NCBI RefSeq assembly: GCF_016863295.1
Contig: NZ_BOOP01000003.1
Coordinates: 186,001-250,000, forward strand
DNA from: Planotetraspora phitsanulokensis
GTDB taxonomy: Bacteria > Actinomycetota > Actinomycetes > Streptosporangiales > Streptosporangiaceae
Length of the DNA: 64,000 nt
Direction: 5' to 3'
Shown: positions 11,468 to 49,942 of the stretch, in pieces
Layout: each line of letters opens with the position of its first letter
Position numbering within the stretch: the first letter of the stretch is position 1
The notes under the pieces: generated by a model
Databases searched by the model: none
What the model saw: only the letters and a program-made list of their open reading frames with translations
Told to the model about the DNA's origin: nothing
Translations under genes and position numbers: made by a program

Positions 11468-11578
11468 GCTCCCCAGGTTGGACGTGCCGCCCAGGCCGCC
11501 GCGTCTGCCGTCCGGCGGACCCGGATGTATATCTCACGACAGATCCGCTTTTCATCCCGGCGCGGATACCCTGCCGCC

Positions 11579-30246: not shown

Positions 30247-30666
30247 TCACGCGGTGAGCGCGGCCCGCCAGCTGTCTGGCCAGCGCGAACTCCTACGGCC
30301 GCCGTCCGCGACGTGCACGGTGACGTACGACCCGTGCGCCGCAAGCGTCCGCGGCCGTCCCTCGAACTCCTCACCCCAGACCTCGAACGAGAACGTCATC
30401 GACGAATCGCCGAGCCTGATCAGCTCGACGACGGCGGTGACCTTCTGGCCGAACCTCAGTGGGGCTTCGAACTCCACCTCGTAGCGCACTCGGGGGGCCT
30501 TCTGGAAGTAGTCGTGGAGCCCCCGTTCCCGCATGAGCGCGGCCTCGGCCGACTCGACGAACCGCACGACCGCCGTGTTGTGGTAAATGCCGGCCGCGTC
30601 GGTGTCGACCCACTCCACGCGGGTGTGGTGGACCCCGACCGATCCCTGCTTGTGCGTCTCCGTCAC
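30247..30666 (-). CDS. 4-hydroxybenzoyl-CoA-type thioesterase (hot-dog fold)
   Basis: A 139-residue hot-dog thioesterase. VEWVDTDAAGIYHNTAVVRFVESAE is split by the family motif with the catalytic Asp in DTDAAG. RYEVEFEAPLRFGQ and SFEVWG are the following strands. It hydrolyses an aryl- or acyl-CoA to the free acid. Its GTG start overlaps the hydroxylase stop by 4 bases, so it should act on the hydroxylated CoA ester made by that enzyme (inference). It is the last gene of the operon. Confidence 0.87.
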   Translation of the reverse strand: MTETHKQGSVGVHHTRVEWVDTDAAGIYHNTAVVRFVESAEAALMRERGLHDYFQKAPRVRYEVEFEAPLRFGQKVTAVVELIRLGDSSMTFSFEVWGEEFEGRPRTLAAHGSYVTVHVADGGRRSSRWPDSWRAALTA

Positions 30667-33038
30667 GCGGACACCGCGGCCCGGTCCGGCGTCCACCGCA
30701 CGTGGACCTGGTCGTCCTGGCCCGCACGCAGGAGCGCCAGACGCGGCGGGATCTTGTCCGTGCGCGAGGTCGGCGGCCTGCGACGGCCGGCGTTGAACTG
30801 CACCGGCCAGTCGGCGCCCGGACCCCGGTACTCCTGCTCGGCCCCGGCGTGGAGCGTCCATTGCGGGTCGTACAGGTGGGTGCGGCCGAGAGCGCACAGG
30901 TCGGCGCGGCCGGCGAGCAGGATCGAGTTCACGTCGTCGTAGGAGCTGATCGCGCCGACCGCGATCACCTTCGCCCCTGCGGGCGCGGCCACCTCATGGC
31001 GGATCCGGTCGGCGAACGGGGTCTGGTACGAACGGCCGAACGCGGGCTTCTCCTCCCTGGTGACCTGACCGGAGGAGACGTCGATGGCGGCCGCGCCGTG
31101 CTCGATGAACGCGCGGGCGATCTCGACGGCGTCGTGCTCGGTGTTGCCGTCGGGAACCCAGTCCGTCGCCGAGATGCGGACCGTCACCGGAATGTGCCCC
31201 GGCACCACCGCGCGGACGGCGTCGAAGACCTCGAGCGGGAAGCGCAGCCGGTTCACCAGCGGTCCGCCGTACTCGTCGGCGCGCTTGTTGGCGATCGGGG
31301 ACAGGAACGAGGAGAGCAGGTAGCCGTGTGCGGCGTGCAGTTCGATGAGGTCGAAGCCTGCGTCGGCAGCGCGCCGCGCGGCGGCGGCGAAGTCGGCGAC
31401 CACCTGGTCCAGGTCGGCGCGTGTGGCCTCACGGGGCACGTGGCAGCCCACGCCGTACGGCAGCGGGGTGGGGCCGATGACCTCCCAGTTGCCCTCGGCG
31501 AGCGGGTCGTCCATGCCCTCCCACATCAGCTTGGTCGAGCCCTTGCGGCCGGAGTGGCCGATCTGGGCGCCGATCTTGGCGGTGGTGCGGGTGTGCACGA
31601 AATCGGTGATCTTCTTGTACGCGTCGCGCTGCTCGTCGGTCCACAGGCCGGTGCAGCCGGGGGTGATCCGTCCCTCCGGGGAGACGCACGCCATCTCGGT
31701 CATCACCAGTCCGGCGCCGCCGAGCGCCTTCGAGCCGAGGTGGACGAGGTGGAAGTCGTCGGCGACGCCGTCCACCGCCGAGTACATGTCCATCGGCGAG
31801 ACGATCACGCGGTTCTTCAGCTCCAGTTCGCCGATGCGGATCGGCTGGAACATCGCGGGCGCGGCCTGGTCGCCTCCGTTGGCCCTCGCGAAATCCGACT
31901 CGATCAGTCCGGCGAAGCCCGCGTCGCGATCCCTGAGGTTCTCGAAGGTGATCCGCCGGCTGCGGGTGAGCAGGTTGAAGCAGAACTGGGCAGGCTCCTG
32001 GTCGGCGTACATGCCGATGTTCTCGAACCACTCCAGCGATGCCTGCGCGGCCCGCTGGGTCGACTCCACGACCGGCTTGCGCTCGGTCTGGTACGCCTCG
32101 AGCGCCGCCTCGACCGTCGGGTTCTCGTGCAGGCACGCGGCGAGCGCGAGCGCGTCCTCCATGGCGAGTTTCGTGCCTGAGCCGATCGAGAAGTGCGCGG
32201 TGTGGGCGGCGTCGCCGAGGAGCACGACGTTGCCGTGGTGCCAGCCGGTGTTCCGCACGGTGGTGAAGTTGAGCCACTTGGAGTTGTTGGTGAGGATCTC
32301 GTGGCCGTCGAGTTCCTCGGCCCAGATCTCCTTGATCCGGGCGACGGCGTATTCGTCACTGGTGCCGGGCGGGAACTCCTCGCTCTCCGTCCGGTCGAAC
32401 CCCGCTCGGCGCCAGACGTCCTCGTGCATCTCGACGATGAAGGTCGAGCCCTGATCGGAGAAGGGGTAGCCGTGGATCTGCATGGTGCCCCACTCCGTCT
32501 CCTTGACGAAGAACTGGAACGCCTCGAAGACCAGGTCGGTGCCGAGCCAGATGTACTTGTTCCGCCGGCGGTCGAGAGTGGGGCCGAAAGCGTCGGCGTA
32601 CTTCGTCCGGACCGTGGAGTTGAGTCCGTCGGCGGCGACGACGAGGTCGTACGCCGATCTGAGCTCGTCCGCGTCGGGCGCCGACGTGCGGTAGTGGACG
32701 GTGACGCCGAGCTCCGCGACGCGCTCCTGCAGCAACTGCAGCAGTTCCTTGCGGCTCATCGCCGCGAAGCCCTGCCCGCCGACGGTGAAGGGGCGGCCGT
32801 TGAACTCGATGTCGATGTCGGTCCAACGGGCGAACCGGCTCTCCATCTTCTTGTAGACGACCTGGTCGGCGCTCTCGATGCCGCCCAGGGTCTCGTCGGA
32901 GAAGACCACACCGAAGCCGAAGGTGTCCTCGGGCGCGTTGCGCTCCCAGACGGTGACCTCGTGCGTGACGTCGAGGCCCTTCATCAGGGCAGCCAGGTAG
33001 AGGCCCCCGGGGCCGCCGCCGACGATGGCGATCTTCAA
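30663..33038 (-). CDS. Bifunctional anthraniloyl/salicylyl-CoA 5-hydroxylase (FAD monooxygenase + OYE domain)
   Basis: A 791-residue fusion. Residues 1 to about 395 are a flavin monooxygenase (IVGGGPGGLYLAALM, LLGDAAHTAHFSIGSG). Residues about 400-760 are an old-yellow-enzyme domain (MFQPIRIGELELKNRVIVSP, HAAHGYLLSSFLSP, VGAISS). This architecture is known only for 2-aminobenzoyl-CoA monooxygenase/reductase and for salicylyl-CoA 5-hydroxylase. It hydroxylates the ring at C5, using NAD(P)H and O2; the OYE half reduces the product in the anthranilate enzyme. TTG 33038 follows AAAGGA. It lies 11 bp behind an aryl-CoA ligase. Which of the two substrates is used cannot be told from sequence. Confidence 0.9.
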   Translation of the reverse strand: MKIAIVGGGPGGLYLAALMKGLDVTHEVTVWERNAPEDTFGFGVVFSDETLGGIESADQVVYKKMESRFARWTDIDIEFNGRPFTVGGQGFAAMSRKELLQLLQERVAELGVTVHYRTSAPDADELRSAYDLVVAADGLNSTVRTKYADAFGPTLDRRRNKYIWLGTDLVFEAFQFFVKETEWGTMQIHGYPFSDQGSTFIVEMHEDVWRRAGFDRTESEEFPPGTSDEYAVARIKEIWAEELDGHEILTNNSKWLNFTTVRNTGWHHGNVVLLGDAAHTAHFSIGSGTKLAMEDALALAACLHENPTVEAALEAYQTERKPVVESTQRAAQASLEWFENIGMYADQEPAQFCFNLLTRSRRITFENLRDRDAGFAGLIESDFARANGGDQAAPAMFQPIRIGELELKNRVIVSPMDMYSAVDGVADDFHLVHLGSKALGGAGLVMTEMACVSPEGRITPGCTGLWTDEQRDAYKKITDFVHTRTTAKIGAQIGHSGRKGSTKLMWEGMDDPLAEGNWEVIGPTPLPYGVGCHVPREATRADLDQVVADFAAAARRAADAGFDLIELHAAHGYLLSSFLSPIANKRADEYGGPLVNRLRFPLEVFDAVRAVVPGHIPVTVRISATDWVPDGNTEHDAVEIARAFIEHGAAAIDVSSGQVTREEKPAFGRSYQTPFADRIRHEVAAPAGAKVIAVGAISSYDDVNSILLAGRADLCALGRTHLYDPQWTLHAGAEQEYRGPGADWPVQFNAGRRRPPTSRTDKIPPRLALLRAGQDDQVHVRWTPDRAAVSA

Positions 33039-33049
33039 AGGAGTTCCTT

Positions 33050-34708
33050 TCACTGCGAAGCGGCAGGAACGTCGGCCTGCTCTTGTTCGACGATGCGGCG
33101 AAGCACGAAGTGCTGCAGCTTGCCGCTGCGGTTGCGCGGCAGCGAGTCGATGAACCGGACGTCGCGCGGGTACTTGTACGGCGCGATCTGGCCCTTGACG
33201 TAGTCCTGGAGCTCCCGGACCTTGGCGGCGTCGCCGGCGACGCCCTCGCGAAGCACCACGAAGGCGCAGACGATCGAACCCCGCTCGGTGTGGGGCTCGG
33301 CCACGACCGCCGACTCGACGACGTCGGGATGGGTGTCGATCGCGGCCTCCACTTCGGGGCCGCCGATGTTGTAGCCGGAGGAGACGATCATGTTGTCGGT
33401 GCGGGCCCGGTAGAAGAAGTAGCCGTCCTCGTCCCGGAGGAAGGTGTCGCCGGTGACGTTCCAGCCGTTGACGACGTAGTTCTCCTGCCGTTCGTCGTCG
33501 AGGTAGCGGCAGCCGACCGGGCCGATGACGGCGAGCATGCCCTCCACACCGGGACCGGCCTCCTCGCCGTCCGCCCCGAGGACGGTCGCGCGATAGCCCG
33601 GGACCGGCTTCCCTGTCGCCCCGGGGCGGATGTCCGCTCCCGCCGCGGAGATGAAGATGTGCAGCAGCTCGGTCGCCCCGATGCCGTCGATGATCTCGAG
33701 GCCGAGCTCGTCGCGGACCTGCTCCCAGACTCCCTGCGGGATGTGCTCGCCGGCGCTGACGGCCGAGCGGAGGCCGTGCAGAAGCTTGGCGCTGCCGGAC
33801 CTGAGGATCTGCTTGTACGCCGTGGGCGCGGTCGCCAGCACGGTAACGCCGTGCTCGGCGACGAGTTCGGCCAGTTGGACCGGGGTGGCCGACTCGGTGA
33901 GGAAGGCGCACGCGCCGGACCGCAGGGGGAAGACGACGAGCATGCCGAGGCCGAAGGTGAACGCGAACGGCGCGGTGCACGAGACCACGTCGTCGGGCCG
34001 CAGGCGCAGGACGCTCCGGCCGAAGGTGTTGTCGATGGACAGGATGTCGCGGTGGAAGTGCGTGGTGATCTTCGGGACGCCCGTGCTGCCGGAGGTCGGC
34101 CCGAAGAGCGCGACGTCGTCGGCGGCGGTCGCGACGTTCACGAACTCGCCGGACTTCACCGTGGCCCGCCGCGTGAGGTCGTCGGCCCCCGTGCCGCCGT
34201 ACGCCATGATCGCGAGTCCCGGGCCGACGGTGTCGCGGACGGTCTCGACCTCTTCGACGAAGCGGTGGTCGACCAGCGCGATCGCCGGCTGAGTCTTCTC
34301 GACGATGGGGGTCAGCTCGTGGGCACGGAGGGCGGCCATGGTGGTGACGACGATGCCGCCGGCCTTGAGGACGCCCAGCCAGGCGGCGACGGTCCACGGG
34401 TTGTTGGGCGAGCGCAGCAGCACCCGGTTGCCGGGTACGAGGCCGAGGTCCTCGGTGAGCACCTGCGCGACCTGGTTGGCGCGCCGCTGTAGTTCGCCGT
34501 AGGTCCAGGTCTCGCCGGTCGGCGTCCGCAGAGCCGGACGGCCGGCGCCGAATCGTTCCACCGGCACGTCGATGAGCTCGGTCGCGGCGTTGAGCCGCTC
34601 GGGGTACCGCAGGGTCTCGGTCGTGAACTCGAGCGTCGGCCACTGCTCGGCCGGTGGCAGGTGGTCTCGGGCGAAGGTGTCGGGATAGGCGGAGGGGCTG
34701 AGGTCCAT
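33050..34708 (-). CDS. Aryl-CoA ligase, 2-aminobenzoate/benzoate type
   Basis: A 552-residue ANL-superfamily ligase. The P-loop is FGPTSGSTGVPK, the central region GIGATELLHIFIS, the hinge TGDTFLRDEDG, and the catalytic Lys lies in RNRSGKLQH. It activates an aromatic acid with ATP and CoA; the N-terminal WPTLEFTTETLRYPERLN block resembles 2-aminobenzoate-CoA ligases. Placement directly before the bifunctional hydroxylase fits anthranilate (or salicylate) as substrate. ATG 34708 follows AAGGACG. Confidence 0.88.
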   Translation of the reverse strand: MDLSPSAYPDTFARDHLPPAEQWPTLEFTTETLRYPERLNAATELIDVPVERFGAGRPALRTPTGETWTYGELQRRANQVAQVLTEDLGLVPGNRVLLRSPNNPWTVAAWLGVLKAGGIVVTTMAALRAHELTPIVEKTQPAIALVDHRFVEEVETVRDTVGPGLAIMAYGGTGADDLTRRATVKSGEFVNVATAADDVALFGPTSGSTGVPKITTHFHRDILSIDNTFGRSVLRLRPDDVVSCTAPFAFTFGLGMLVVFPLRSGACAFLTESATPVQLAELVAEHGVTVLATAPTAYKQILRSGSAKLLHGLRSAVSAGEHIPQGVWEQVRDELGLEIIDGIGATELLHIFISAAGADIRPGATGKPVPGYRATVLGADGEEAGPGVEGMLAVIGPVGCRYLDDERQENYVVNGWNVTGDTFLRDEDGYFFYRARTDNMIVSSGYNIGGPEVEAAIDTHPDVVESAVVAEPHTERGSIVCAFVVLREGVAGDAAKVRELQDYVKGQIAPYKYPRDVRFIDSLPRNRSGKLQHFVLRRIVEQEQADVPAASQ

Positions 34709-34719
34709 CGGTGTCGTCC

Positions 34720-35646
34720 TTAGGGGGTGCGAATCATGCCTTCTTGGGCGACGGTGGCCAGGTGGGTGTGGTCCCGGGTGAAGAAGCGGCCGGCGGCCAG
34801 CCCGCGGCCGGACTCGGCGGCGCCCGCCTCCTGTGCGTAGAGCAGCCAGTCGTCGACGACGCCTCGGCCGGGGGCGCGGTGGAACCACATCGCGTGGTCG
34901 AGGCTCGCCGTCACCAGGCCGGGATCGGCCCAGGCGAGGCCGAGCACCCGCAGCACCGGCTCGAGGATGGTGTAGTCGCAGACGTAGGCGAGCGCGGCCA
35001 TGTCACGTTGCTCGTCGGTGAGGCCCTCGACGGGACGCAGCGCGTCGAACGGCTTGACCCACACGGCCTGGTGCGGGACCCGCTCCCCCTCCACCGCGAG
35101 GTAGACGGGGCCGGGCACGTGACGCATGTCGAAGCCGCGGCCGCCGGCCCAGTACGCCTGCGACTGCTCGGTCATCGTTCCCTCCAGCCCGAAGCCCGCG
35201 AGGTACGACGCGGAGCCGGGCAGATCCTCGGGGGCGGGGACGTCGAGCGGAGCGCCGGGGGAGAAGCTGCCGCCAGGCTCGCCGGCGGCGAAGTTGGCCA
35301 GGCAGACGTAGACCGGTTTGCCGTTCTGGAAGCCGCGTACCTGCCGGGTGGCGTAGCCGCGGCCGTCGCGCAGCAGCTCCACCTCGTAGCGCACCTCGGC
35401 GCCGATGTCGACGGGCCGGAGGAAGTAGGAGTGCATCGAGTGCAGGGTCTTGCCGCCCTCTCCCCCGGCCACCGACCGCATGGCGGCGGCCGCCGCCTGG
35501 GCGACCATGTCGCCGCCGTACGCCTTGGGCCAGGGGCAGGCCTGGGTGACCGCGCTGAAGGCGAGGTCGAGATGCTCGGGCTCGGCGGCCTTCAGGGTGA
35601 CGGCGGCCGTGAAGATCTCGCTGGTGGGACGCGCCTGGTCGGTCAC
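34720..35646 (-). CDS. Acyl-CoA thioesterase II (TesB family)
   Basis: A 308-residue double-hot-dog thioesterase. LHSMHSYFLRPVD and GRGYATRQVRGFQNGK are in the first domain; LDHAMWFHRAPGRGVVDDWLLY carries the catalytic Asp in the second. The GTG start overlaps the cupin stop (GTGA). It is a second, structurally different thioesterase in the same operon and may remove stalled CoA intermediates or act on a downstream ring-fission product. Confidence 0.9.
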   Translation of the reverse strand: MTDQARPTSEIFTAAVTLKAAEPEHLDLAFSAVTQACPWPKAYGGDMVAQAAAAAMRSVAGGEGGKTLHSMHSYFLRPVDIGAEVRYEVELLRDGRGYATRQVRGFQNGKPVYVCLANFAAGEPGGSFSPGAPLDVPAPEDLPGSASYLAGFGLEGTMTEQSQAYWAGGRGFDMRHVPGPVYLAVEGERVPHQAVWVKPFDALRPVEGLTDEQRDMAALAYVCDYTILEPVLRVLGLAWADPGLVTASLDHAMWFHRAPGRGVVDDWLLYAQEAGAAESGRGLAAGRFFTRDHTHLATVAQEGMIRTP

Positions 35647-36128
35647 GGGCGGTCCAGCCAGTCGCGCAGGTCCGCGTCGGGGACGTCCGCGAGGTTGACG
35701 ACGATGTTCTCGGGCGTGCGGGTCGTCATCCAGGTCAGCGACTTGTTGCGGTCCAGGTTGCACTCGATGTGCGGCATGAAGGGCGGGACGAAGACCCAGT
35801 CGCCCTCCTCCATGTCGATGTAGTCCTCGAACCGCTCGCCGAAGTAGATCCGCGCCCGGCCGGAGAGCACGTAGCCTCCGGTCTCGGCCTCGCCGTGGTG
35901 ATGCGTCACCGACCGGTAGCCCGGCTCGTTGCTGACCTTGCCGAACCACAGCCTGGTCGCGGGGGTGTGCTGGATGCTGACGCCGGAGACGCGCGTGGCG
36001 CCAGCGGACTGACCGGTGTCGCCCACCTCCAGTCCCCCTCGGGTGACCACAGGCACGACGAGGCCGCTCGCGGCGGCGTACATCGAGTTGTCGCCCTCGA
36101 GGACGTATTTGCTCGGATCGGGTTCCAT
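35643..36128 (-). CDS. Single-domain cupin, candidate ring-cleavage dioxygenase
   Basis: A 161-residue cupin. Motif 1 is THHHGEAETGGYVLSG, giving metal ligands His 76-78 and Glu 82; motif 2 is GDWVFVPPFMPHIECN with His 120. The complete 3-His/1-Glu set argues for a catalytic metal. Gentisate dioxygenases are about 340-380 residues with two cupin domains, so this is not a classical one. In context it could cleave the 5-hydroxylated aromatic acid (inference). ATG 36128 has GAGGAG upstream. Confidence 0.82.
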   Translation of the reverse strand: MEPDPSKYVLEGDNSMYAAASGLVVPVVTRGGLEVGDTGQSAGATRVSGVSIQHTPATRLWFGKVSNEPGYRSVTHHHGEAETGGYVLSGRARIYFGERFEDYIDMEEGDWVFVPPFMPHIECNLDRNKSLTWMTTRTPENIVVNLADVPDADLRDWLDRP

Positions 36129-36139
36129 CGAGTTGCTCC

Positions 36140-36961
36140 TCAGCGGTTCGTGAAACGGTTCTGCAGGGTGCCGATGCCGGGGATCTCGGTCTCGACCACG
36201 TCGCCATCGGCCAGATAGAGGGGCGGCTTCATCCCCATCCCGACGCCGCCGGGTGTGCCGGTCAGGACGACGTCGCCGGGACGCAGCCGGGTGAAGGCCG
36301 AGACGTAGGACAGCAGCGCCGCCGGGCCGAAGACGAGGGTCCTGGTGTTGCCTCGCTGGCGCCGCACGCCGTTGACCCGGCAGATCACCTCGACGCCGCC
36401 CGCCACGTCGATCTCGTCCGGAGTGACCAGCACCGGGCCGATCGGGGTCGAGCGATCCCAGGCCTTGCCCTGGAACCACTGGAGCGTGCGGTTCTGCCAG
36501 TCACGCACGGAGATGTCGTTGGCGACCGTGTAGGCCGCGATCGACCGCTCGGCGGTGGCGACGTCCGCCCGCTCGAGGTCCGCTCCGACGACCACGGCGA
36601 GCTCCGCCTCCCAGTCGACGTCGACCCCGGCCGGAAGCGCGATGTCCTCCTCAGGGCCGATCAGGGTGTCGGCGTACTTGGCGAACAGGGTCGGATGCGC
36701 CGGGAGCTCCCGGCCCATCTCCCGGATGTGGTCGGCGTAGTTGAGCCCGCAGCAGACGACCTTCGCCGGCCGCGGCAGCGGGCAGGCGAGATGCCAGCCG
36801 TCGAGAGCCTCCTCGGCGAGGTCGGCGACCGTGCCGATCTCGGCGCCCGTGTGCGTCAGGAGGTCGCTCAGATCGGCGAACGGCAACCGGCGCCAATCCC
36901 CCTCCATCCGGATGGCGGCGGCGGTCACGCCGTGGCGGCCGACAAGCGTCGCCAGCTTCAC
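36140..36961 (-). CDS. Fumarylacetoacetate-hydrolase-family protein
   Basis: A 273-residue FAH-fold enzyme. CCGLNYADHIREMGRELP begins the catalytic domain, metal ligands are in DWEAELAVVVG, YTVANDISVRDWQ follows, and the end has LTGTPGGVGMGMKPP. Members hydrolyse C-C bonds of ring-fission products such as fumarylpyruvate or decarboxylate them. It is the first gene of the left-running aryl-CoA operon. GTG 36961 has GAGGAGG 7 bases upstream, and a sigma-70-like promoter lies further up. Confidence 0.9.
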   Translation of the reverse strand: MKLATLVGRHGVTAAAIRMEGDWRRLPFADLSDLLTHTGAEIGTVADLAEEALDGWHLACPLPRPAKVVCCGLNYADHIREMGRELPAHPTLFAKYADTLIGPEEDIALPAGVDVDWEAELAVVVGADLERADVATAERSIAAYTVANDISVRDWQNRTLQWFQGKAWDRSTPIGPVLVTPDEIDVAGGVEVICRVNGVRRQRGNTRTLVFGPAALLSYVSAFTRLRPGDVVLTGTPGGVGMGMKPPLYLADGDVVETEIPGIGTLQNRFTNR

Positions 36962-36989
36962 TACCGGCCTCCTCGCAGCACTGGATCGA

Positions 36990-37004
36990 GGTCTGTACGA
37001 GACC
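36990..37004. promoter_or_regulatory. Inverted repeat shared with 37585
   Basis: GGTCT-GTACG-AGACC is a perfect inverted repeat with 5-bp arms in the FAH/RidA divergent region. A near copy, GGTCTGTATACGAGG, occurs at 37585-37599 upstream of the GTPase gene. A common regulator is plausible. Confidence 0.5.
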
Positions 37005-37016
37005 ACATGTATGCCG

Positions 37017-37045
37017 TATTCTTCACGACCGTCATAGAATGTCAA
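37017..37045 (-). promoter_or_regulatory. Predicted promoter of the aryl-CoA operon
   Basis: On the minus strand TTGACA (37045-37040) is followed after 17 bp by AGAATA (37022-37017), about 55 bp upstream of the FAH gene. The -35 box is exact; the -10 box is weak. Confidence 0.5.
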
Positions 37046-37096
37046 TAGAATCTCGGATGACTCGTCAGGCCCGCCAACAGTGCGAGGAGACCGCCC

Positions 37097-37522
37097 ATGC
37101 GACCGGTTGCCGTCAACCCCGATGCCCTGCCCGCCCCCAGCGGCTTCTCGCACGGGACCCTCTCCGGGAACACGCTCCATCTGGCCGGTCAGACGGCCCT
37201 CGACGCGGAGATGCGGATCGTTCCCGGCGGCATCGTCGAACAGTTCCGCCAGGCGCTGTCGAACGTCCTCGTCACGCTCCGCGAGGTCGGCGGTGAGCCC
37301 GAAGACCTCGTCAGCGTGACCATCTACCTCACCGACATCCCGGACTACCAGGCGCACGGCAGGCAGATCGGAAAGGTGTGGAGGGAACTGATCGGCCCCA
37401 CCTACCCCGCCATGGCCGGCATCGGCTGCACCGCCCTCTGGCAGCCCGAGGCGATGGTCGAGATCGTCGGCGTGGCCGTCATCCCGCAGTCGCGTCTCCT
37501 TCACCCCGGGCCGGTGACCTGA
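37097..37522 (+). CDS. RidA/YjgF-family protein
   Basis: A 141-residue Rid protein. HLAGQTALD, GIVEQFRQALSNVLVTLREVG, TIYLTDI and the C-terminal MVEIVGVAVIP fit the family. Rid enzymes hydrolyse enamines/imines to ketones and ammonia; several Rid-like proteins in aromatic pathways deaminate ring-fission products. That would suit an aminated substrate such as 5-hydroxyanthranilate (inference). The conserved Arg of archetypal RidA near residue 105 is not obvious (IGCTALW), so it may be a divergent subclass. GAGGAG precedes ATG 37097. Confidence 0.87.
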   Translation: MRPVAVNPDALPAPSGFSHGTLSGNTLHLAGQTALDAEMRIVPGGIVEQFRQALSNVLVTLREVGGEPEDLVSVTIYLTDIPDYQAHGRQIGKVWRELIGPTYPAMAGIGCTALWQPEAMVEIVGVAVIPQSRLLHPGPVT

Positions 37523-37623: not shown

Positions 37624-37655
37624 CCACCGGTGCGCATGCCTCAGCGCACCGGTGG
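37624..37655 (+). promoter_or_regulatory. Perfect 12-bp hairpin in the GTPase leader
   Basis: CCACCGGTGCGC (37624-37635), an 8-base loop, GCGCACCGGTGG (37644-37655), 25 bp before the GTG start of the CobW-type gene. It could be a terminator of ridA, an attenuator, or a protein-binding site. Confidence 0.7.
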
Positions 37656-37680
37656 CCACGACCAGACCGGAGAGAACTCA

Positions 37681-38655
37681 GTGACGGCGGACCAGGCACC
37701 CGACCCGGTCCCGGCGACCGGGGCCACGGCGCTGCCGGTCGCGATCGTCACCGGGTTCCTCGGCAGCGGTAAGACGACCTTCGTCAGAGGCCTGCTCGAC
37801 GCAGGCGGCAGCGGCCGGACAGCGGTCATCGTGAACGAACTGGGCGAGCTCGGCATCGACGGCGCGCTCCTCGAAGGGGCGGCGCGGTCGGTGATCGAGC
37901 TCCCCGGAGGCTGCATGTGCTGCGAGAGCCGCGGGGACGTCGGCAGGGCGCTCGCCCTGCTGGCGGAAAGGGCCTCGGAACTGGACGCCGTCGTCGTCGA
38001 GACCAGCGGCGTCTCGGATCCACTGGGGGTCGCCGACCTCCTCGCACACGGAGTCTTCCCGGCGGACCTCCGGCTGAGCCAGGTCGTCACCGTGGTGGAC
38101 GCGGAGAACTTCGACCGCAACCTCGCCGACGCCGACGCCGCGTACAGCCAGATCGTCAGCGCCGACCTGTTCGTGGTCGGCAAGTCGGACCTCGTGGCGC
38201 CTGACGTGGTCACCGCCATCGGCGAGCGCCTTGCCGTACTCAACCCCCACGCGGCCGTCCTGCCGTCCGACGGGGGCCGGTCGGCCGCCGGCCTCCTCGG
38301 CGAGGTTGCCGGGGTACCCGCGATCTCGGCCCGGCGGCAGGCCGTCCACACGGAGCCCGGCTACGACAGCGTCGCGTGGGAGACGAACCGGGAGATCGGC
38401 CTCGACCGGCTGCTCGCCTGGGTGGAGGCCCTGCCGCCGAACATCTACCGGGTCAAGGCGCTCGTCCGGCAGGGCCGGACGGACGTGGCGGTGCACCGCG
38501 TCGGAGCCCGCGTGACCGTGCTCGCCTCGGCGGGCGCGCGCCGGGAGCCCGGGGACGGCCGCACACGGGTGGTCGCCATCGGCAGAGGCATCGCCGCCGA
38601 GTCGATGAGGGCCGAGCTCGACGCCATGGAACCGTCCGACGAGGAGACAGCGTGA
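37681..38655 (+). CDS. CobW/G3E-family GTPase metallochaperone
   Basis: A 324-residue COG0523 protein. The Walker A GFLGSGKTT, the metal-binding GCMCC (CxCC) motif near residue 80, ETSGVSDP and the GKSD guanine motif are all present, with a CobW C-terminal domain (VKALVRQGRTDVAVHRV). Such GTPases insert zinc, cobalt or iron into metalloenzymes. Its gene overlaps a metal-dependent amidohydrolase gene and lies near a metal cupin, both plausible clients. GGAGAG precedes GTG 37681. Confidence 0.88.
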   Translation: MTADQAPDPVPATGATALPVAIVTGFLGSGKTTFVRGLLDAGGSGRTAVIVNELGELGIDGALLEGAARSVIELPGGCMCCESRGDVGRALALLAERASELDAVVVETSGVSDPLGVADLLAHGVFPADLRLSQVVTVVDAENFDRNLADADAAYSQIVSADLFVVGKSDLVAPDVVTAIGERLAVLNPHAAVLPSDGGRSAAGLLGEVAGVPAISARRQAVHTEPGYDSVAWETNREIGLDRLLAWVEALPPNIYRVKALVRQGRTDVAVHRVGARVTVLASAGARREPGDGRTRVVAIGRGIAAESMRAELDAMEPSDEETA

Positions 38656-40367
38656 TGATCGAAGAGGGGCGTCTCGTCCCCGACACCGTCCTGCACAACG
38701 CCAAGGTCATCACCCTCGACGGCGCGTCCACCATCGCCGAGGCGATCGCCGTCGGAGGCGACCGGATCGTCGCCGTGGGCGCCGACGCGGACGTGCTGCC
38801 CCTGGCGGGGCGCGGCACGCGGGTGTCCGATCTCCACGGCGCGAGCGTCATCCCGGGTCTGATCGACAACCACACGCACCAGCTCATGGCCGGCCTCGAC
38901 AGCGCCGAGGCCGGAGCGAAGGTCAACGTGGCCTCGGCGACCTCGATCGCCGAGATCCAGGCGCTGATCGCGGCGCGCGCCCGCCAGGTGCGGCCCGGCG
39001 AATGGATCACGACCTCGTGCCTGTTCCGCGGCGCGCTGACGGACGGGCGGTTCCCCGACAGACATGACCTCGACGCTGCGGCACCGGACAACCCCGTCTA
39101 CGTTGCCGACGGCGGCCGGAACATCATCGTCAACACCCGGGCGCTCGAACTCGCGAACATCGACGCGAACACGCCCGAGCCCGAAGGCGACCCCGAACTC
39201 GCGGACGGCCACATCGTGCGGGACGAGGCGGGCGTCCCGACAGGACATCTCATCGTCGGCGCCGGCGACCGAGCACGCCTGAACTGGTGGAGACGTCTCG
39301 GGCAGCCCATCAAGATGTGGGACTTCCTGGACTTCGACGTCGACACGAACCTCAGGGCCCTCCGTGCGCAGATGCGCACCTTCAACGCCGCGGGGATCAC
39401 CGGCGTCCGCGACATGGGGGTCGCCCCCCGGGAGATCGACACGTACGTCGAACTCGTACGCCGGGGCGAGGCGACGGTTCGCACCAACCTCGTCCTCGGG
39501 CTTCCCGTCCAGTACCTGCCGACGGATCAGATCATCGCGGCCCTGCGCACGTACATGGGCCCCAAGCAGGGCTTCGGCGACGAATGGCTGCGGATCGGAG
39601 GCCTCAAGGTCGTCGCGCAGAACTACGGCTACTGGTCGATGCATCCCGGGAAGATCCGGGCCCTGCTCGTCGAGGGCAACCGCCTGGGCTGGTCCTTCGC
39701 GATCCACGGGACGCCAGGCGACCTCGGTGACGACATCGAGATCCTCCTCGACGCCATGGAAGAGGCCCACCGCGAGCACGCCATCGACGAGGCACGGTGG
39801 TCGTACGAGCACGCGTTCGGGCTGGTGAATCCCGACCACCAGCGCCGGCTGCTGGATCTCGGGGTCACCATCGCCGCCAACCCCCACCTGTCGTACGTGG
39901 GAGCCGGGCGCTCGGCGGCGATGCAGCAGGCCCTGCAGAGCCTCCATCTGGAGGAGCCTCCCGGCGGCATGACGGAGCACCGGCGGACGGTGCTGCGCTG
40001 GGGCCAGCCGATCCGCACCTGGATCGGCGCGGGCCACCTCGTCACAGGAGGCAGCGACTGCCCGGCGGTGGCCTACGACTCCGAGAACCCTTTCCTCGGG
40101 CTGTGGGCGACCTTCTCCCAGGAGACGCTCGCCGGCGTCCTCATGCCGGAGGAGAAGATCGACCGGGAGACCGCCCTGCGGATCTGGACGGTCAACAACG
40201 CGGTCGCGACCGGCGAGGAGCACCTCAAGGGGAGCCTCGAGCCCGGCAAGCTCGCCGACTTCGCCGTGCTCACCGGCGATCCCCTGCTGACCCCCGACGC
40301 CGACTTCCTGTCCCTGAAGGTCGCCGAGACCGTCGTGGGCGGAAGGACGGTCTACGAGCGGAGCTGA
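38652..40367 (+). CDS. YtcJ-type metal-dependent amidohydrolase
   Basis: A 571-residue amidohydrolase-3 protein. The metal motif HTH is in PGLIDNHTHQLMAG, the carboxylated-lysine region is replaced in the usual YtcJ way, and GGSDCPAVAYDSENP carries the catalytic Asp near the end, followed by WTVNNAVATGEE. It hydrolyses an amide, lactam or similar ring. The start overlaps the GTPase stop, with GAGGAG before GTG 38652 (ATG 38655 is equally possible). The substrate is probably a product of the neighbouring aromatic pathway, but this is not shown. Confidence 0.88.
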   Translation: MMIEEGRLVPDTVLHNAKVITLDGASTIAEAIAVGGDRIVAVGADADVLPLAGRGTRVSDLHGASVIPGLIDNHTHQLMAGLDSAEAGAKVNVASATSIAEIQALIAARARQVRPGEWITTSCLFRGALTDGRFPDRHDLDAAAPDNPVYVADGGRNIIVNTRALELANIDANTPEPEGDPELADGHIVRDEAGVPTGHLIVGAGDRARLNWWRRLGQPIKMWDFLDFDVDTNLRALRAQMRTFNAAGITGVRDMGVAPREIDTYVELVRRGEATVRTNLVLGLPVQYLPTDQIIAALRTYMGPKQGFGDEWLRIGGLKVVAQNYGYWSMHPGKIRALLVEGNRLGWSFAIHGTPGDLGDDIEILLDAMEEAHREHAIDEARWSYEHAFGLVNPDHQRRLLDLGVTIAANPHLSYVGAGRSAAMQQALQSLHLEEPPGGMTEHRRTVLRWGQPIRTWIGAGHLVTGGSDCPAVAYDSENPFLGLWATFSQETLAGVLMPEEKIDRETALRIWTVNNAVATGEEHLKGSLEPGKLADFAVLTGDPLLTPDADFLSLKVAETVVGGRTVYERS

Positions 40368-41158: not shown

Positions 41159-41249
41159 CCGCGGCCCCGGGGCGGCGACCGCGTGCGGATCCGGAACACC
41201 CCTGTCACATCTCGGCGCCTACCCTGAGGGAGATGTGGGAGGTGACCCG

Positions 41250-42173
41250 ATGACTCTGCGGATCCACCAGCTCGAATGCTTCATCGCCGTGGCTGAACAC
41301 GGCCACGTCACCCGCGCCGCTCAGTCCCTGTTCATGACGCAACCGGCGCTCTCCTCGCAGATCCGCGCGCTGGAGGACGAGCTCGGTGTGGCGCTGTTCT
41401 CCCGGCATGCCAAGGGGGTCGACCTGACCCCGGCAGGCGAGGCGTTCCTCCCCCACGTTCGAGCCTCCCTGCTCGAGCTGGAGCACGCCGTCGACGCCGC
41501 CAGGGCCGCGGCGACGGGTGTCCACTCCGTCGTGCGGGTCGGGCTGATCGTCGGCACCCAGGTCGACGTCATCTCCCGTGTGCTCCGGGCGTTCCGCCAG
41601 GTCGCCCCCGGGAGCCGGATCGAGTTCGTGGAGTACACCTTCGACAAACCGTCGGCCGGCCTGCGGGCCGGCGAGACGGACGTCGCCTTCGTCGTGCTCC
41701 CGATGCACGAGGAGGATCTGAGCTTCATGCCGCTCGAGCAGCCGGGTGTGATCGCCACCCTCTTCGACGAGCATCCGCTCAGCGACCGGTCGAGCGTGTC
41801 CATCGGCGAAATCCTCGAAGAGCCCTGGGTCTGCGCGGACACTCCCGACGAGATCTGCCGCGACTACTGGCTCGCGGCGAGCCATCGCGTGGCGCCGCCG
41901 GTGGTTCATCACCGGGTGCGGACGATGGACAAGTTCATTCAGCTCGTCGCCGCCGCCGAAGCCGTCGGCATCGCACCCGCGTGGGTCGAGCGCCACTACA
42001 GGGGCAGGCCCGTTCGATTCGTCCCGGTCAGCGATGTGGAGAGCCCCACCGTCGCCCTCGCCTGGCGCGAGGGCGAGGACGCGTTCCCGGCGGTCGTCCG
42101 AATGCGGGCCGCCGCACGGGCCGCACTGGGCCCGTCCAACGACCTGCGGCCCGTCGAGCATCAGAGCGCCTAG
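41250..42173 (+). CDS. LysR-family regulator
   Basis: A 307-residue LysR protein. HQLECFIAVAEHGHVTRAAQ and SLFMTQPALSSQIRALE form the winged helix-turn-helix, and the rest is the co-inducer domain (VRVGLIVGTQVDVISRVL). An excellent ribosome site GGGAGGTGA lies 5 bases before ATG 41250. It is last in the right-running arm of the aromatic gene cluster and may activate one or both arms. LysR proteins often sit beside aromatic catabolic genes. Confidence 0.92.
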   Translation: MTLRIHQLECFIAVAEHGHVTRAAQSLFMTQPALSSQIRALEDELGVALFSRHAKGVDLTPAGEAFLPHVRASLLELEHAVDAARAAATGVHSVVRVGLIVGTQVDVISRVLRAFRQVAPGSRIEFVEYTFDKPSAGLRAGETDVAFVVLPMHEEDLSFMPLEQPGVIATLFDEHPLSDRSSVSIGEILEEPWVCADTPDEICRDYWLAASHRVAPPVVHHRVRTMDKFIQLVAAAEAVGIAPAWVERHYRGRPVRFVPVSDVESPTVALAWREGEDAFPAVVRMRAAARAALGPSNDLRPVEHQSA

Positions 42174-45723: not shown

Positions 45724-45872
45724 GGGCCTCTTCTTTCCGCGCCGGCCCGACGCCGAAGGGCGACCGGAAGTTCTATCCACCGATAAATGGCCAATCAGCA
45801 TCATCCCGATACAGGTAGATCATGAATACCTATTTCACTGAATGAACATCGGCGATTGACTCATTGTCACCT

Positions 45873-45950: not shown

Positions 45951-47459
45951 TCAGGCGATCGGGAGGGCCAGGCGCTCGTTGACGGGCTCGACCAGGGCCG
46001 TCCGGTTGGTGAGGACGACCCAGGTCTGGCCGCCCTGACCGACGCGCCCCGGTCTGATGATCAGGGACGCGGAGAAGCCCGAGCCGGCGCCGGGCTGCCC
46101 GGCGACGTCCTTGGGCAGCATGAGCATCCAGCCGAGGCCCGCCTGGCCGCCGAGGCGGTCCCGCTCGGCCTGCGGCCGAAGCGCCTCGCGGACGAGCGCG
46201 TCGGGCAGCAGCGAGGACCAGGCGAGCCCGAAGCGGACGAGGTCGGCCGCCGTGGTCCACAGACCGCCCGCAGCCGGCAGGATCGAGACCTGCGTCGGTA
46301 CCCGCTCGAACATGCCCTCGTCGGTGAGGCGGTGGCCGGTGGCCGCTCCGGTGACCGGACCGCTGCGCGGGAACCACGAATCGCTCATCCCGAGGGGTTC
46401 GAGCACCATGCGGGTGGCCGCCTCCTCGTAACGCGATTCGGTGACGTCGGCGATCAGCTGCCCGAGCAGCGCGTACCCGCCGTTGCCGTAGGCGAACGCG
46501 CCACGCGGCCCGCCGCACGCCGCGACCGGCCCGGTGACCGAGGCCAGGTCGGGGACGCGGTCGGCGAACATCGACGCGGGACTGTCGACGCCGCCGGTAT
46601 GGGACAGCAGCTCCCGGACGGTGACGCCGTCGTCGGCGAGCCGGATGGTGCGCAGGTACGCGTTCGCGGGCTCGTCGAGCCGTACGCGCCCGTCCGCGAC
46701 CAGCCGCAGAACGGCGATCGAGGTGACCAGCTTGGTGACCGAGTACGCGGGAAACCGGTGGTCGGGCAGCAGCACGTCATCGTCGTCCAGGCTCGCCCAG
46801 CCGCGTGCGGTCACCCACACCGAGCCGTCATCGGCCGCGCCGGCCACGATGAGGCCGACCAGGCCCAGCTCGGCGAACGAATCCGCGGCCACCGCGGCGG
46901 CCTCCTCGGGCACCGGACCGGAGGTGCGCGTCGCCGGTGCCGCCACACGGGGGTCCTTGACCTTCGTCTCCAGCAGATACAACCGCAGACTGCGCAGCCG
47001 GTGCGGCGGGCCGGCCTCGGTCGCCGCCTCGATGCGCAGGTCGGCGGCCCTCGCGCGCAGGCTCAGCGGCTCGGCTCGTACGTCGGCGAGGTCCTCGCGC
47101 AGCCGCTCGGCCACCGCGCCGAGCAGGCCGGTCAGCGTGTCCGGCGGCACGAGGCTCAGGTAGTGGTCGTCGAAGTGCCGGCGCAGTTCCTCCTCACCGG
47201 GTGGCGCCCATTCCGGGGTGCCGGCCGCCGCGAAGCGGGACATGATCCACCGCACCTGCGTGAGGGCGTGACTCGCCGGAGCCGCGGCCTCGATGTGTTC
47301 CTTGAGAGCGGCCCAGCTCGGCAGCCCGTGCTCGCGGGCGATGGCCAACTGGGCCTGGTGAAGCGTTGCGAACTCCCCCGCGGAGAGGCGGCGTTTCGCC
47401 TCGAGCTTCAGGTACCGGAGACTGGGCCGGTCGGGGAGCGCACGCGACTGATCGGACAA
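45951..47459 (-). CDS. Serine hydrolase (beta-lactamase/PBP-like) with N-terminal helical domain
   Basis: A 502-residue class C beta-lactamase-like hydrolase. SVTK is the S-x-x-K catalytic motif (in FPAYSVTKLV) and YGN in FAYGNGGYALLGQ is the Y-x-N motif. The first 150 residues are a separate domain starting SLRYLKLEAKRRLSAGEF and GLPSWAALKEHIE, seen in several actinobacterial serine hydrolases. No signal peptide is present, so it acts in the cytosol. TTG 47459 was chosen because GGAAGGA lies 6 bases upstream. The substrate is unknown. Confidence 0.85.
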   Translation of the reverse strand: MSDQSRALPDRPSLRYLKLEAKRRLSAGEFATLHQAQLAIAREHGLPSWAALKEHIEAAAPASHALTQVRWIMSRFAAAGTPEWAPPGEEELRRHFDDHYLSLVPPDTLTGLLGAVAERLREDLADVRAEPLSLRARAADLRIEAATEAGPPHRLRSLRLYLLETKVKDPRVAAPATRTSGPVPEEAAAVAADSFAELGLVGLIVAGAADDGSVWVTARGWASLDDDDVLLPDHRFPAYSVTKLVTSIAVLRLVADGRVRLDEPANAYLRTIRLADDGVTVRELLSHTGGVDSPASMFADRVPDLASVTGPVAACGGPRGAFAYGNGGYALLGQLIADVTESRYEEAATRMVLEPLGMSDSWFPRSGPVTGAATGHRLTDEGMFERVPTQVSILPAAGGLWTTAADLVRFGLAWSSLLPDALVREALRPQAERDRLGGQAGLGWMLMLPKDVAGQPGAGSGFSASLIIRPGRVGQGGQTWVVLTNRTALVEPVNERLALPIA

Positions 47460-47674
47460 GGCAGTCCTTCCCTCGTCGCCCGCGGGTCCGCGACATCGGG
47501 CAGGAAAAGACATGCCGTCGAATTGCTTGGCGAAAACCGGTGAGCTTGCAGCTCTGCCCGCGGACCCAGAGGCGGCCGGGAAACCGCCGCCCACCAACCT
47601 ACCGCGTCACCCTGGTGACCTGCGAACCCTTTTCTCCCGTTTGGCACCCAGTGGGAAGTCGCGATCCGCGAAGA

Positions 47675-48010
47675 TCACGACTTGCCGCTGGAGTCCTGGC
47701 CCGAGTCGTTTCCTCGCCGCCACCTCTCCAGGTCCGCCACGAGGCGGGCCTGATTGCCTTCGTCGATCCTGCCGCCCTGGATCTCCACCGAGACGACACC
47801 CTCGAGCTGGAGGAGAGCAGGCCGCACAGTGACCTCGGAGCAGACGGGGCGGTAGGTGCACCCGGTGCACATGCCGGTGTACCTGACCTCGACATTGCCC
47901 TGGTCGTCGACGCCGGCGAGCTCGACGCCGCCGCGGTGGACGGACATCATCCGGCCCACGGATCGGACCCGACGCTCGACCGCGTCGCGATCGACGCCTT
48001 CGCCGCCCAT
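47675..48010 (-). CDS. NifU-like Fe-S scaffold domain protein
   Basis: A 111-residue protein equal to the C-terminal NifU domain. YTGMCTGCTYRPVC gives the conserved CxxC (Cys 48, Cys 51), with an additional Cys 57 not usual in the family, followed by a VVSVEIQGG strand. NifU-type domains hold transient [4Fe-4S] clusters for delivery to target proteins. The ATG overlaps the amidohydrolase stop (TGATG), so translation is coupled and the amidohydrolase is the obvious candidate client. Confidence 0.82.
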   Translation of the reverse strand: MGGEGVDRDAVERRVRSVGRMMSVHRGGVELAGVDDQGNVEVRYTGMCTGCTYRPVCSEVTVRPALLQLEGVVSVEIQGGRIDEGNQARLVADLERWRRGNDSGQDSSGKS

Positions 48011-49053
48011 CAGATCCCGCCGCTCACCCGCGACGCCGGCTCGCCGAGGGCCCTGAGCTCGGCCTTCTTGGCCTCGACGTCGACGTCGAACAGGCGGGCC
48101 ATGGTGAGGCCGAGGATCTTCTCCTTGTCGGAGCGGGTGATCTGCGGGTATCCGTAGCCCTGACGCAGGTCGTCCGGGATCTCCAGATTGACGAAGTCCT
48201 CGAGGAACGGAGCCGGCGCACCCGTCATCGCGGCCTCCGAGCCCCACATCAGCTTGTCGGATCCGACCTCCATGAGAAGGCGCCCCAGCTGCTCCTGCAC
48301 CCGGCGCGGCGCGACCTTGTAGAAGCTCAGGACACCGGACAGGGCGAGGTAGACGTTCGGGAACCGGGACGCGATCGAGACGACCTCGTCGAAGTACGGC
48401 AGCGCGAGGTGGTGGATCACGAACTTCGCGTCGGGGAAGTCCCGGGCCGGCCTCTGGAGGTCGACCGGCCGCAGGACGTCGACGTCCCACATCCCGAACG
48501 GGAGGCCCTTGTGGAACTGGAGCACGTCGACGCCCAGGTTCAGCGCCTGCTCGTAGAGCGGGTAGGCGAGCTCTCGGTCGTCACAGCGCCACGACTTGTC
48601 GATGTGACCGTTGTAGAACTTGAACGAGCGTGCGCCGAGCTCCTCCTTCTGGCGGATCATCTCGACCTTCGCTCCGTGCAGACCATGGTGGATCGGGTCC
48701 ACGCCGCCCGAGAGCAACACCCTCTCCGGGTATGCCGAGGCGAAGGCGTGCTGTGCCTCGATGGAGGAGAAGGAGTCCTGGAACCAGTCCCACACCGGGA
48801 CCGCGCAGGCCATCGCCATGTCGACCGGCGACTGGACGAACTCCATCTCGTACATCTGCTCGGTCGTGAACTTCGTCTCCCAGTCGAAGTCGCCGGCGAA
48901 CTGCCCCATCTGCGGCTCGTACTTCATGGAGTCCATCGCCACGCGCCAGCCGTACAGCATCGGCTCCATCTCCCGCAGTTCCCTGCGCTGGTTCGCGGGT
49001 GAGAAGTCGTATACGTGACAGACGCAGTCGAAGACGAACATGTCGCCGATCAT
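48010..49053 (-). CDS. Amidohydrolase-2 (ACMSD-like) protein with altered metal site
   Basis: A 347-residue TIM-barrel protein of the amidohydrolase-2/decarboxylase group (ACMSD, gamma-resorcylate decarboxylase). The N-terminal D-x-H-x-H metal motif reads DCVCH (residues 9-13): the first His is Val 11 and two cysteines flank it. His 181 (LQFHKG) and His 214 (FVIHHLA) are kept, but the usual GSD aspartate is Glu 273 (MWGSEAA). It is thus a non-canonical member. It precedes and overlaps a NifU-like gene. GGGAG lies before ATG 49053, and two 20-bp direct repeats are upstream. Confidence 0.85.
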   Translation of the reverse strand: MIGDMFVFDCVCHVYDFSPANQRRELREMEPMLYGWRVAMDSMKYEPQMGQFAGDFDWETKFTTEQMYEMEFVQSPVDMAMACAVPVWDWFQDSFSSIEAQHAFASAYPERVLLSGGVDPIHHGLHGAKVEMIRQKEELGARSFKFYNGHIDKSWRCDDRELAYPLYEQALNLGVDVLQFHKGLPFGMWDVDVLRPVDLQRPARDFPDAKFVIHHLALPYFDEVVSIASRFPNVYLALSGVLSFYKVAPRRVQEQLGRLLMEVGSDKLMWGSEAAMTGAPAPFLEDFVNLEIPDDLRQGYGYPQITRSDKEKILGLTMARLFDVDVEAKKAELRALGEPASRVSGGI

Positions 49054-49161
49054 GGGGGACTCCCTTTTCGTGCTGAGGCGAATCGCCTCACGGGACGGGC
49101 TGCCTTTCCAACGTAGGAGTCCGGAGATCGGGGCATCCAATAGCGATTCCGCGCGGCCCGA

Positions 49162-49201
49162 CTGACTTTCGTTATGACCGGCTGACTTTCGTTGTGACAG
49201 G
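49162..49201. repeat. Two adjacent 20-bp direct repeats
   Basis: CTGACTTTCGTTATGACCGG (49162-49181) and CTGACTTTCGTTGTGACAGG (49182-49201) differ at two positions. They lie about 110-150 bp upstream of the amidohydrolase start and about 220 bp before the response-regulator stop. Exact 20-bp phasing places the copies on nearly the same DNA face, typical of activator binding sites. Confidence 0.8.
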
Positions 49202-49297
49202 CCGGATTCAGCCGCGGCCACGTGCGTCAGCCGGCCGGAGAGATCCGCCCTCTGCGCAGGACATGATCCGCGAACGCACGCGCCCTCCGCCGCGTCG

Positions 49298-49942
49298 TCA
49301 TCGTCCGGAGTCCCGGACCAGGAGTGCGGCCTGAACGCGGTTCGAGCAGCCGAGCTTGGACAGAATCCGGCTCACGTAGGTCTTGATCGTCGTCTCGCTC
49401 ATGCGGAGCCGCCGGCCGATCTCGGCGTTGGACATGCCCTCCGCCACCAGGCTCACGACCTCCGATTCGCGGGATGTCAGCGTGGCGAGCCGCTCCGCCG
49501 CCTCCCGCCGGACCAGGGCCTGCACGGGCGTGACCATGCCGAGCACCGTCCGGGTCACCCCGGGCGACAGATAGGCGTCACCGGCGTGCGCCGCCCGGAC
49601 GGCGCGGATCAACTCTTCGGGACCGCAGTTCTTGAGGACGAACCCGGCCGCGCCGTTCTGCAGGGCACGCAGCACGTTCGCCTCCTCACCGAACGCCGTG
49701 AGCACGACGGTCCGCGCCGCGGGCAACTGAAGGCGCAACTCCTCCATCGCGTCCAGCCCGTTGAGGATCGGCATGTTGACGTCGATCAACGCCACGTCGA
49801 CGCGGTGTCTGACCGCCTGGTCCACGGCCGCCCTGCCGTTCGCCGCCTCGGCGACGACCTCGATGTCGTCCGCCGATTCCAGCACGGTGCGGATTCCGGC
49901 CGTGATCAGAGGTTCGTCGTCGGCGACGAGCACGCGGATCAT
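49298..49942 (-). CDS. NarL/LuxR-type response regulator
   Basis: A 214-residue regulator. Receiver residues DD 8-9, Asp 54 in ALIDVNMPI and Lys in FVLKNCG are present; the LuxR domain is LTSRESEVVSLVAEGMSNAEIGRRL. It lies one base after its kinase gene. Likely targets are the divergent ABC exporter (51248) and possibly the repeats at 49162-49201. Confidence 0.93.
   Translation of the reverse strand: MIRVLVADDEPLITAGIRTVLESADDIEVVAEAANGRAAVDQAVRHRVDVALIDVNMPILNGLDAMEELRLQLPAARTVVLTAFGEEANVLRALQNGAAGFVLKNCGPEELIRAVRAAHAGDAYLSPGVTRTVLGMVTPVQALVRREAAERLATLTSRESEVVSLVAEGMSNAEIGRRLRMSETTIKTYVSRILSKLGCSNRVQAALLVRDSGR

Follow-up and report, generated by a model that had tools for sequence, protein, structure and literature searches.

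The amidohydrolase-2 proteins (Amidohydro_2, the ACMSD-type branch; PF04909) are TIM barrels recognised by an HxH motif on β1, histidines on β5 and β6 and an aspartate on β8. The branch includes LigY, a C-C hydrolase, LigJ, a hydratase, the dihydroxybenzoate decarboxylases and 3irs, an uncharacterised barrel. Carriers of the NifU C-terminal domain or Nfu type (PF01106) resemble the partner protein considered here in being a single domain with a CxxC motif, and DUF59 proteins (PaaD/SufT/MIP18; PF01883) belong to a different Pfam family; we take both kinds of partner to share the FSCA fold.

The closest described systems are the soluble diiron monooxygenase clusters of the prm/mim type (propane/acetone), in which a related clade of the same two-gene unit, with a DUF59 partner, is joined by GroEL. 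In the available portion of PMC4428276, prmABCD is followed downstream by a metal-dependent hydrolase, a metal-sulfur cluster biosynthetic enzyme, an alcohol dehydrogenase and GroEL, and a figure legend in PMC9213486 has the same gene order in a diiron monooxygenase cluster. A table in PMC7176365 places an amidohydrolase-like protein with the Mim cluster, proteomics data in PMC11852219 contain members of the pair, and the accessible part of PMC6849523 gives the order amidohydrolase, protein of unknown function, alcohol dehydrogenase, GroEL, and describes GroEL alone as needed for expression in another host. No tested amidohydrolase function appears in the available text of these five papers. 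In the open-licence literature searched, mention of the pair is confined to maps of monooxygenase genes or to expression lists, and no function for it was found; PMC6015842, judged on its accessible part, was a false lead.

Here we analyse such a pair in Planotetraspora phitsanulokensis, in a 64,000-nucleotide stretch of contig NZ_BOOP01000003.1 referred to below as the window. The reading we prefer, at a probability of about one half, is that the enzyme is a catabolic TIM-barrel hydrolase or lyase to which an FSCA-type protein of its own delivers iron or an Fe-S unit.

Results

The gene pair in the window

The amidohydrolase, which begins MIGDMFVFDCVCHVYDF, matches PF04909 at 100 bits (cut-off 26.4, E 2.7e-28); a longer reading frame is possible from a GTG 56 codons upstream, and relatives align from the ATG (Table 1). 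The original prediction, made from the letters of the DNA, held that the D-x-H-x-H motif of this protein reads DCVCH, that Glu273 stands for the usual Asp, that His181 and His214 are kept, and that its stop codon overlaps the start of a NifU-type gene. Translation of 49053-48010 places DCVCH (residues 9-13), H181, H214/H215 and E273 as described, and the overlap is real, one base (48010) being common to the TGA stop and the ATG of the NifU-like gene. A start codon candidate (ATG, GTG or TTG) of the NifU gene overlaps the enzyme stop in 47 of 53 NifU-coupled loci. The NifU-like protein scores 27.2 bits against PF01106 (cut-off 27), a match that is marginal taken singly. Unlike the NifU/Nfu carriers, it is tied to one enzyme gene and lies far under the NCBIfam equivalog cut-offs for NifU (14.5 against 273.3 bits) and NfuA (12.3 against 269.35). 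A scan of 47400-49500 for sigma-70 promoters and terminators gave no match.

Table 1. Features of the window. Positions count from the first letter of the window; residue numbers refer to the amidohydrolase unless the NifU partner is named.
Feature	Position	Strand	Remarks
Amidohydrolase gene, 347 aa	48010..49053	-	ATG at 49053, stop TGA 48012-48010; Amidohydro_2
NifU C-terminal-domain-like partner gene, 111 aa	47675..48010	-	NifU-type Pfam match
β1 motif D9-C10-V11-C12-H13	49015..49029	-	D9, H13 kept in NifU-coupled clade; C10, C12 not
Cys83, end of β2	48805..48807	-	Relatives have Cys here or at 115; Ser115 in window
K145-x-Y147, on β4	48613..48621	-	Invariant in 122/122 rows
H181-K182, end of β5	48508..48513	-	Invariant in 122/122; controls T or C at 182
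H214-H215, end of β6	48409..48414	-	H215 in 122/122; H214 invariant in NifU-coupled clade only
E273, in place of usual Asp	48235..48237	-	From alignment
NifU partner His25	47936..47938	-	53/53 partners
NifU partner CxxC (C48, C51)	47858..47869	-	53/53 partners
ORF with FAD_binding_3 (residues 644-863) and Oxidored_FMN (931-1265) in its 3' part	30663..34643	-
AMP-binding (CoA-ligase type) protein	33050..34888	-
Acyl-CoA thioesterase	34720..36207	-	Domains from ORF residue 225
Small cupin	35643..36479	-	Domain at ORF residues 185-238
Fumarylacetoacetate-hydrolase-family protein	36140..37504	-	Homologues near pair in relatives
CobW-type GTPase (metallochaperone family)	37630..38655	+	Homologue directly 3' of NifU gene in L054
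Amidohydro_3 protein	38376..40367	+	Domain from ORF residue 150; conserved in L052, L054
LysR-type regulator	41235..42173	+

The pairing is general and near-obligate

Relatives of the enzyme were assembled as 122 distinct rows, comprising 29 loci retrieved by searching 296 genomes of the class (L010-L038), 11 plasmid records, 80 genome-contig loci, a paralogue (L039) and the window (L009); L004 and L006, repeats of the paralogue and the window, were left out. The plasmid records were hand-picked, one of them (H13) for the Fe-S protein named under its match, and the contig loci are the best 80 of 155 confirmed in one scan, kept on enzyme similarity alone. The reading frames surrounding each enzyme gene were compared with two small partner HMMs, and the distance was then measured.

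An adjacent gene on the same strand, encoding either a NifU-like protein (53 rows) or a DUF59/FeS_assembly_P protein (67 rows), accompanies the enzyme in 120 of the 122 rows, window included, with 79 of the best 80 contig loci and 28 of the 29 class loci among them. The NifU-like gene lies directly downstream in all 53, and the DUF59 gene upstream in 37 and downstream in 30. One of the two rows with no partner is L019, which has just 64 bases of contig beyond the enzyme stop; the other is L095, a Nitrospinae MAG of the NifU clade, in which the gene is absent from every frame of the 900 bases read. Since 47 ORFs from the same loci went into the NifU HMM, the hits of this HMM come partly by construction, and Pfam served as the independent test: PF01106 matched 53/53 NifU-like partners at E <= 0.01, and PF01883 matched 61/61 DUF59 partners and the remaining 6/6. 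The HMM seed included a wrong-frame ORF of L089, whose true NifU gene, in another frame, matches Pfam. A "NifU" match at L114 was dropped as a spurious ORF in the seed, and this locus was scored as DUF59-upstream. Six later plasmid records, outside the 122 rows, all have a next gene annotated "iron-sulfur cluster assembly protein" (6/6), and among annotated records the label "NifU family protein" is found only in Shinella. Hosts of the pair include Actinomycetota, Pseudomonadota, Chloroflexota, Thermomicrobium, a Peribacillus and haloarchaea.

No match to the NifU or DUF59 partner HMMs was found within about 1.5 kb of 35 other Amidohydro_2 loci, and these controls rule out chance adjacency. 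Six of them (0/6 with a partner) come from the same genome, being those with loci among eight matches outside the two coupled genes, of which the two left out scored more weakly; the other 29 (0/29), from 61 genomes of the order, are top-scoring Pfam matches, mostly of one subtype, and not a random sample. The pairing of the enzyme with an Fe-S-type gene is real and general, and it is near-obligate. The coupling to which the original prediction drew attention in one protein holds across phyla and sets this family apart from the other Amidohydro_2 loci examined.

The two genes stay separate: there is no enzyme-partner fusion among the 122 rows, and the 11 loci with enzyme and partner in one frame each have at least one stop between them. 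Some genomes carry more than one unit. The window's own genome has a second related enzyme (L039, G000:C36:86163-87155), 38% identical and with a DUF59 gene upstream, and Nocardioides PD653-B2 has two NifU-coupled enzymes (L097, L098) about 12 kb apart.

Partner kind follows the enzyme tree. NifU-coupled enzymes form one group of 54 rows, L095 included, with a support of 100; DUF59-upstream enzymes form a clade of 36 rows with a support of 99, and the 37th upstream case (L042) falls among the DUF59-downstream rows. Partner kind changes five times on this tree as compared to a shuffled mean of 56.5, the tree having drawn a tool warning that several long branches meet. Distances between enzymes and between their NifU partners correlate with an r of 0.69 over 27 dereplicated loci, and the maximum in 2000 within-phylum shuffles was 0.26.

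A conserved, altered metal site

The AlphaFold2 model of the window enzyme (pLDDT 93.8, pTM 0.92) has 3irs as its closest solved fold, followed by 2qpx, LigY, LigJ and the dihydroxybenzoate decarboxylases; TM-scores by query length are 0.64 for 3irs, 0.53 for LigJ and 0.52 for LigY. A sequence search of solved structures returned 3irs as the sole match. The likeness to the branch lies in the TIM barrel and in the placement of H181 and H215.

Nine residues are invariant in all 122 rows: D9, D78, K145, Y147, H181, K182, D198, H215 and N233. Three of these are common to the 28 of 35 controls that could be aligned, namely K145 (20/21 controls), H181 (22/22) and H215 (27/27), whereas all 22 controls with a letter at position 182 have T or C there and position 147 is His in 20 of 21, against K182 and Y147 throughout the coupled family.

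Measured against the family motifs, the window enzyme has V11-C12-H13 in place of HxH and Glu in place of the β8 Asp, and retains the β5 and β6 histidines. The metal histidines of D-x-H-x-H correspond to positions 11 (V in the window) and 13 (H), and Cys10 and Cys12 occupy variable positions. That the site is altered, as the original prediction had noted for the one protein, proves to be a conserved feature of the NifU-coupled clade: the first metal His is lost in 54/54 rows, with V or A at position 11 in each, H13 is kept in 54/54, and E273 is found in 52/54. DUF59-upstream rows are similar (V11 in 36/37, H13 in 37/37 and E273 in 36/37).

The DUF59-downstream rows retain the HxH and Asp in part, with H11 in 23/31, H13 in 20/31, D273 in 23/31 and all three together in 12/31. 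Other rows of this group have lost further ligands, with A or G at 13 in 11/31 (Ala in place of the second metal His in 9/31) and G or A at 273 in 8/31, so that some members may hold no metal. The refuting case set by the original prediction, a normal site beside the same NifU gene, occurs in none of the NifU-coupled rows (0/54 with HxH), but the 12 DUF59-downstream rows with H11, H13 and D273 indicate that coupling to an Fe-S-type gene is independent of the altered site.

These 12 rows, together with a fold that is the fold of known metal enzymes, speak for a rival account in which the enzyme is an ordinary metal-dependent amidohydrolase and its FSCA-type neighbour serves as a structural or regulatory subunit, or is retained for some other reason, and passes no iron. 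We consider this account unlikely; against it, partners from two Pfam families are found in the same place and their cysteines are kept without exception. The NifU-like partners retain H25, G27, C48 and C51 in 53/53, and the DUF59 partners, the alternative in sister clades, retain one Cys in 67/67. In the DUF59 partners inspected from L096 and L100-L130, a DPCC motif is present besides the invariant Cys, one sequence ending before the motif. A combined NifU alignment (A4) was left out because MAFFT had misplaced the NifU rows.

As for contact between the partners, the chain obtained by reading through one stop between the DUF59 protein and the enzyme of L125 (alignment A5, 465 residues) was modelled at a pLDDT of 78.5 and a pTM of 0.82 from a shallow alignment, the pTM expected with domains placed at random being near 0.65 by our estimate. 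This model only hints at docking, and does so for the DUF59 pair and not the NifU pair.

Catabolic neighbours and the monooxygenase clusters

The genes neighbouring the pair are catabolic. Gene clusters near 52 NifU-coupled loci, with names taken from one or two representatives per cluster, include transketolase-like (13), the fumarylacetoacetate (FAA) hydrolase family (12), HbpS-like (10), AMP-ligase (8), HIBADH-like (6) and TctC (5). The catabolic set at 30.7-42.2 kb of the window matches neighbour genes of relatives' pairs, and between this set and the pair lie other genes, including ABC-transporter-like ones named by reading rather than by family search. The Glaciibacter pair (L053) is first in a same-strand run with homologues of the FAA hydrolase, cupin, thioesterase, AMP-ligase and FAD/FMN protein, a run that extends to the end of the fetched stretch. 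In Nonomuraea (L054, 9011-13730) the start of the CobW gene coincides with the NifU stop or is at most two bases away from it, and a CobW-type gene is nearby in L052 and in the window. Following CobW in L054 are two ORFs of one cluster, the first being an Amidohydro_3 protein. The window also encodes, at 44872-45804 on the minus strand, a 310-aa protein with no Pfam match that is 88% identical to one beside the pair in Planotetraspora (L051). A flavin fusion of this FAD/FMN kind is known from the 2-aminobenzoyl-CoA and salicylyl-CoA pathways, and by this analogy one may fairly guess at an aryl-CoA route in the window lineage.

Another explanation would make the pair a maturase for some other iron enzyme of the operon, such as a diiron monooxygenase, Rieske oxygenase or cupin dioxygenase, with the amidohydrolase itself not a catalyst. 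It draws on the enzyme and DUF59 genes beside GroEL in diiron monooxygenase operons, an order that is plain in four plasmid records and recurs in the available portions of PMC4428276, PMC9213486 and PMC6849523, alongside the Mim-cluster listing in the table of PMC7176365. L061 and L062 have a Rieske oxygenase upstream, and the small cupin is near the window pair. The four enzymes fetched as plasmids for the prm/mim type all (four of four) fall in the DUF59-downstream group, however, and diiron monooxygenase genes were found in 8/33 DUF59-downstream loci (13 plasmid loci, L042 included, plus 20 widened genome loci), 0/32 DUF59-upstream loci and 0/52 NifU-coupled loci, window 36001-60000 included, in scans whose flanks were mostly 6-9 kb, far shorter on short contigs, and whose queries were close to propane-type enzymes only. 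These counts rule out the pair as a general accessory of diiron monooxygenases and distinguish the window clade from the prm/mim clusters; a Rieske query matched 2/52 NifU-coupled loci. In Mycobacterium sp. AT1, according to the accessible part of PMC6849523, the amidohydrolase, unknown protein and alcohol dehydrogenase are located apart from the monooxygenase, elsewhere in the chromosome. Two loci, L055 and L060 (about 8001-12500), carry an enzyme with NifU, an FAA hydrolase and then a second enzyme with DUF59, and two enzyme genes with different partners are a better match for two enzymes than for two maturases. On balance, we regard a maturase role as unlikely. An alcohol dehydrogenase homologue is present in 22/33 DUF59-downstream loci, and 14 of the 17 loci L166-L182 have a DUF59-coupled enzyme with such a homologue and no diiron monooxygenase match.

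Cysteines of the barrel

Binding of an Fe-S cluster or iron by Cys10, Cys12 and His13, as originally predicted, is very improbable: although these residues are present in the window protein and in L051-L053, three relatives close to it, and the same four also have a third Cys in NifU, Cys10 occurs in 7/54 and Cys12 in 4/54 NifU-clade rows (both in 4/54), and the third NifU Cys is also found in L013, whose enzyme has neither. The usual letters of the clade are N/A at 10 and V/I at 12, and both cysteines are present in 7/37 rows with an upstream DUF59 gene. The third Cys of the NifU protein (residue 57; window 47840-47842, minus strand) is present in 5/53 loci, namely the four with DCVCH enzymes and L013. 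Cys10 and Cys12 were rejected as ligands on conservation; the prediction proves correct for the pair and for the altered site and mistaken in its choice of relevant cysteines.

A different thiol is kept. Exactly one Cys is found at position 83 or 115, the latter within β3 in the model, in 53/54 NifU-clade rows: 28 have Q83 and C115, one has H83 and C115, 24 have C83 with T or S at 115, and one (L013) has neither. On a tree of these 54 rows C83 arose twice, and C115 is absent from each of the 24 rows with C83. This swap suggests that a thiol is required at that spot, and conservation points to Cys83/Cys115 as a better thiol candidate than Cys10/Cys12. A Cys at 83 or 115 is present in just 1/68 DUF59-coupled rows, so this residue cannot explain the pairing in general. 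Because none of the enzyme cysteines is kept in all clades (122 rows), it is unlikely that enzyme cysteines by themselves generally hold a cluster.

Discussion

We return to the preferred reading of a catabolic barrel enzyme with a dedicated partner. This is the simplest mechanism. Under this proposal the two genes would form one module, in which the amidohydrolase acts in catabolism, probably breaking carbon-carbon or carbon-oxygen bonds, and the NifU-like protein serves it as an FSCA-type partner that would use its CxxC motif to load iron or an Fe-S-derived unit into the barrel site. In its favour are the near-obligate pairing and its absence from the controls, the agreement of partner kind and partner distances with the enzyme tree, the loci with two enzymes and two kinds of partner, the kept partner cysteines, the alternating barrel Cys, the CobW genes, the nearest solved folds and the catabolic neighbours. 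The lack of the 83/115 Cys in nearly all DUF59-coupled rows, the rows with further ligands lost and the partnerless L095 speak against it. From the genes and the model we infer the contact between the two proteins, the involvement of iron, a role for the barrel Cys as ligand or catalytic residue, and the class of reaction.

A bolder version makes the FSCA-type partner the catalytic subunit, whose Fe-S or iron unit would dock in the degenerate barrel and act as a Lewis acid in trans for C-C or C-O cleavage. We think this rather improbable. If it were true, the pair would represent a new class of Fe-S-dependent TIM-barrel hydrolases or hydro-lyases in bacteria and haloarchaea, and NifU-like and DUF59 proteins would be interchangeable cofactor subunits.

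On the preferred reading, database entries named "amidohydrolase family protein" may include a branch that is inactive or wrongly metallated without its partner gene, which would explain failed assays. NifU-like and DUF59 proteins would gain a specific client that lacks family-wide Fe-S cysteines, and the accessory genes of propane-type monooxygenase clusters would gain a testable role. K182 together with an FSCA-type neighbour would be a marker when catabolic operons are read. Taken together, the analysis suggests that a little-studied branch of enzymes depends on its own partner protein, perhaps receiving iron from it.
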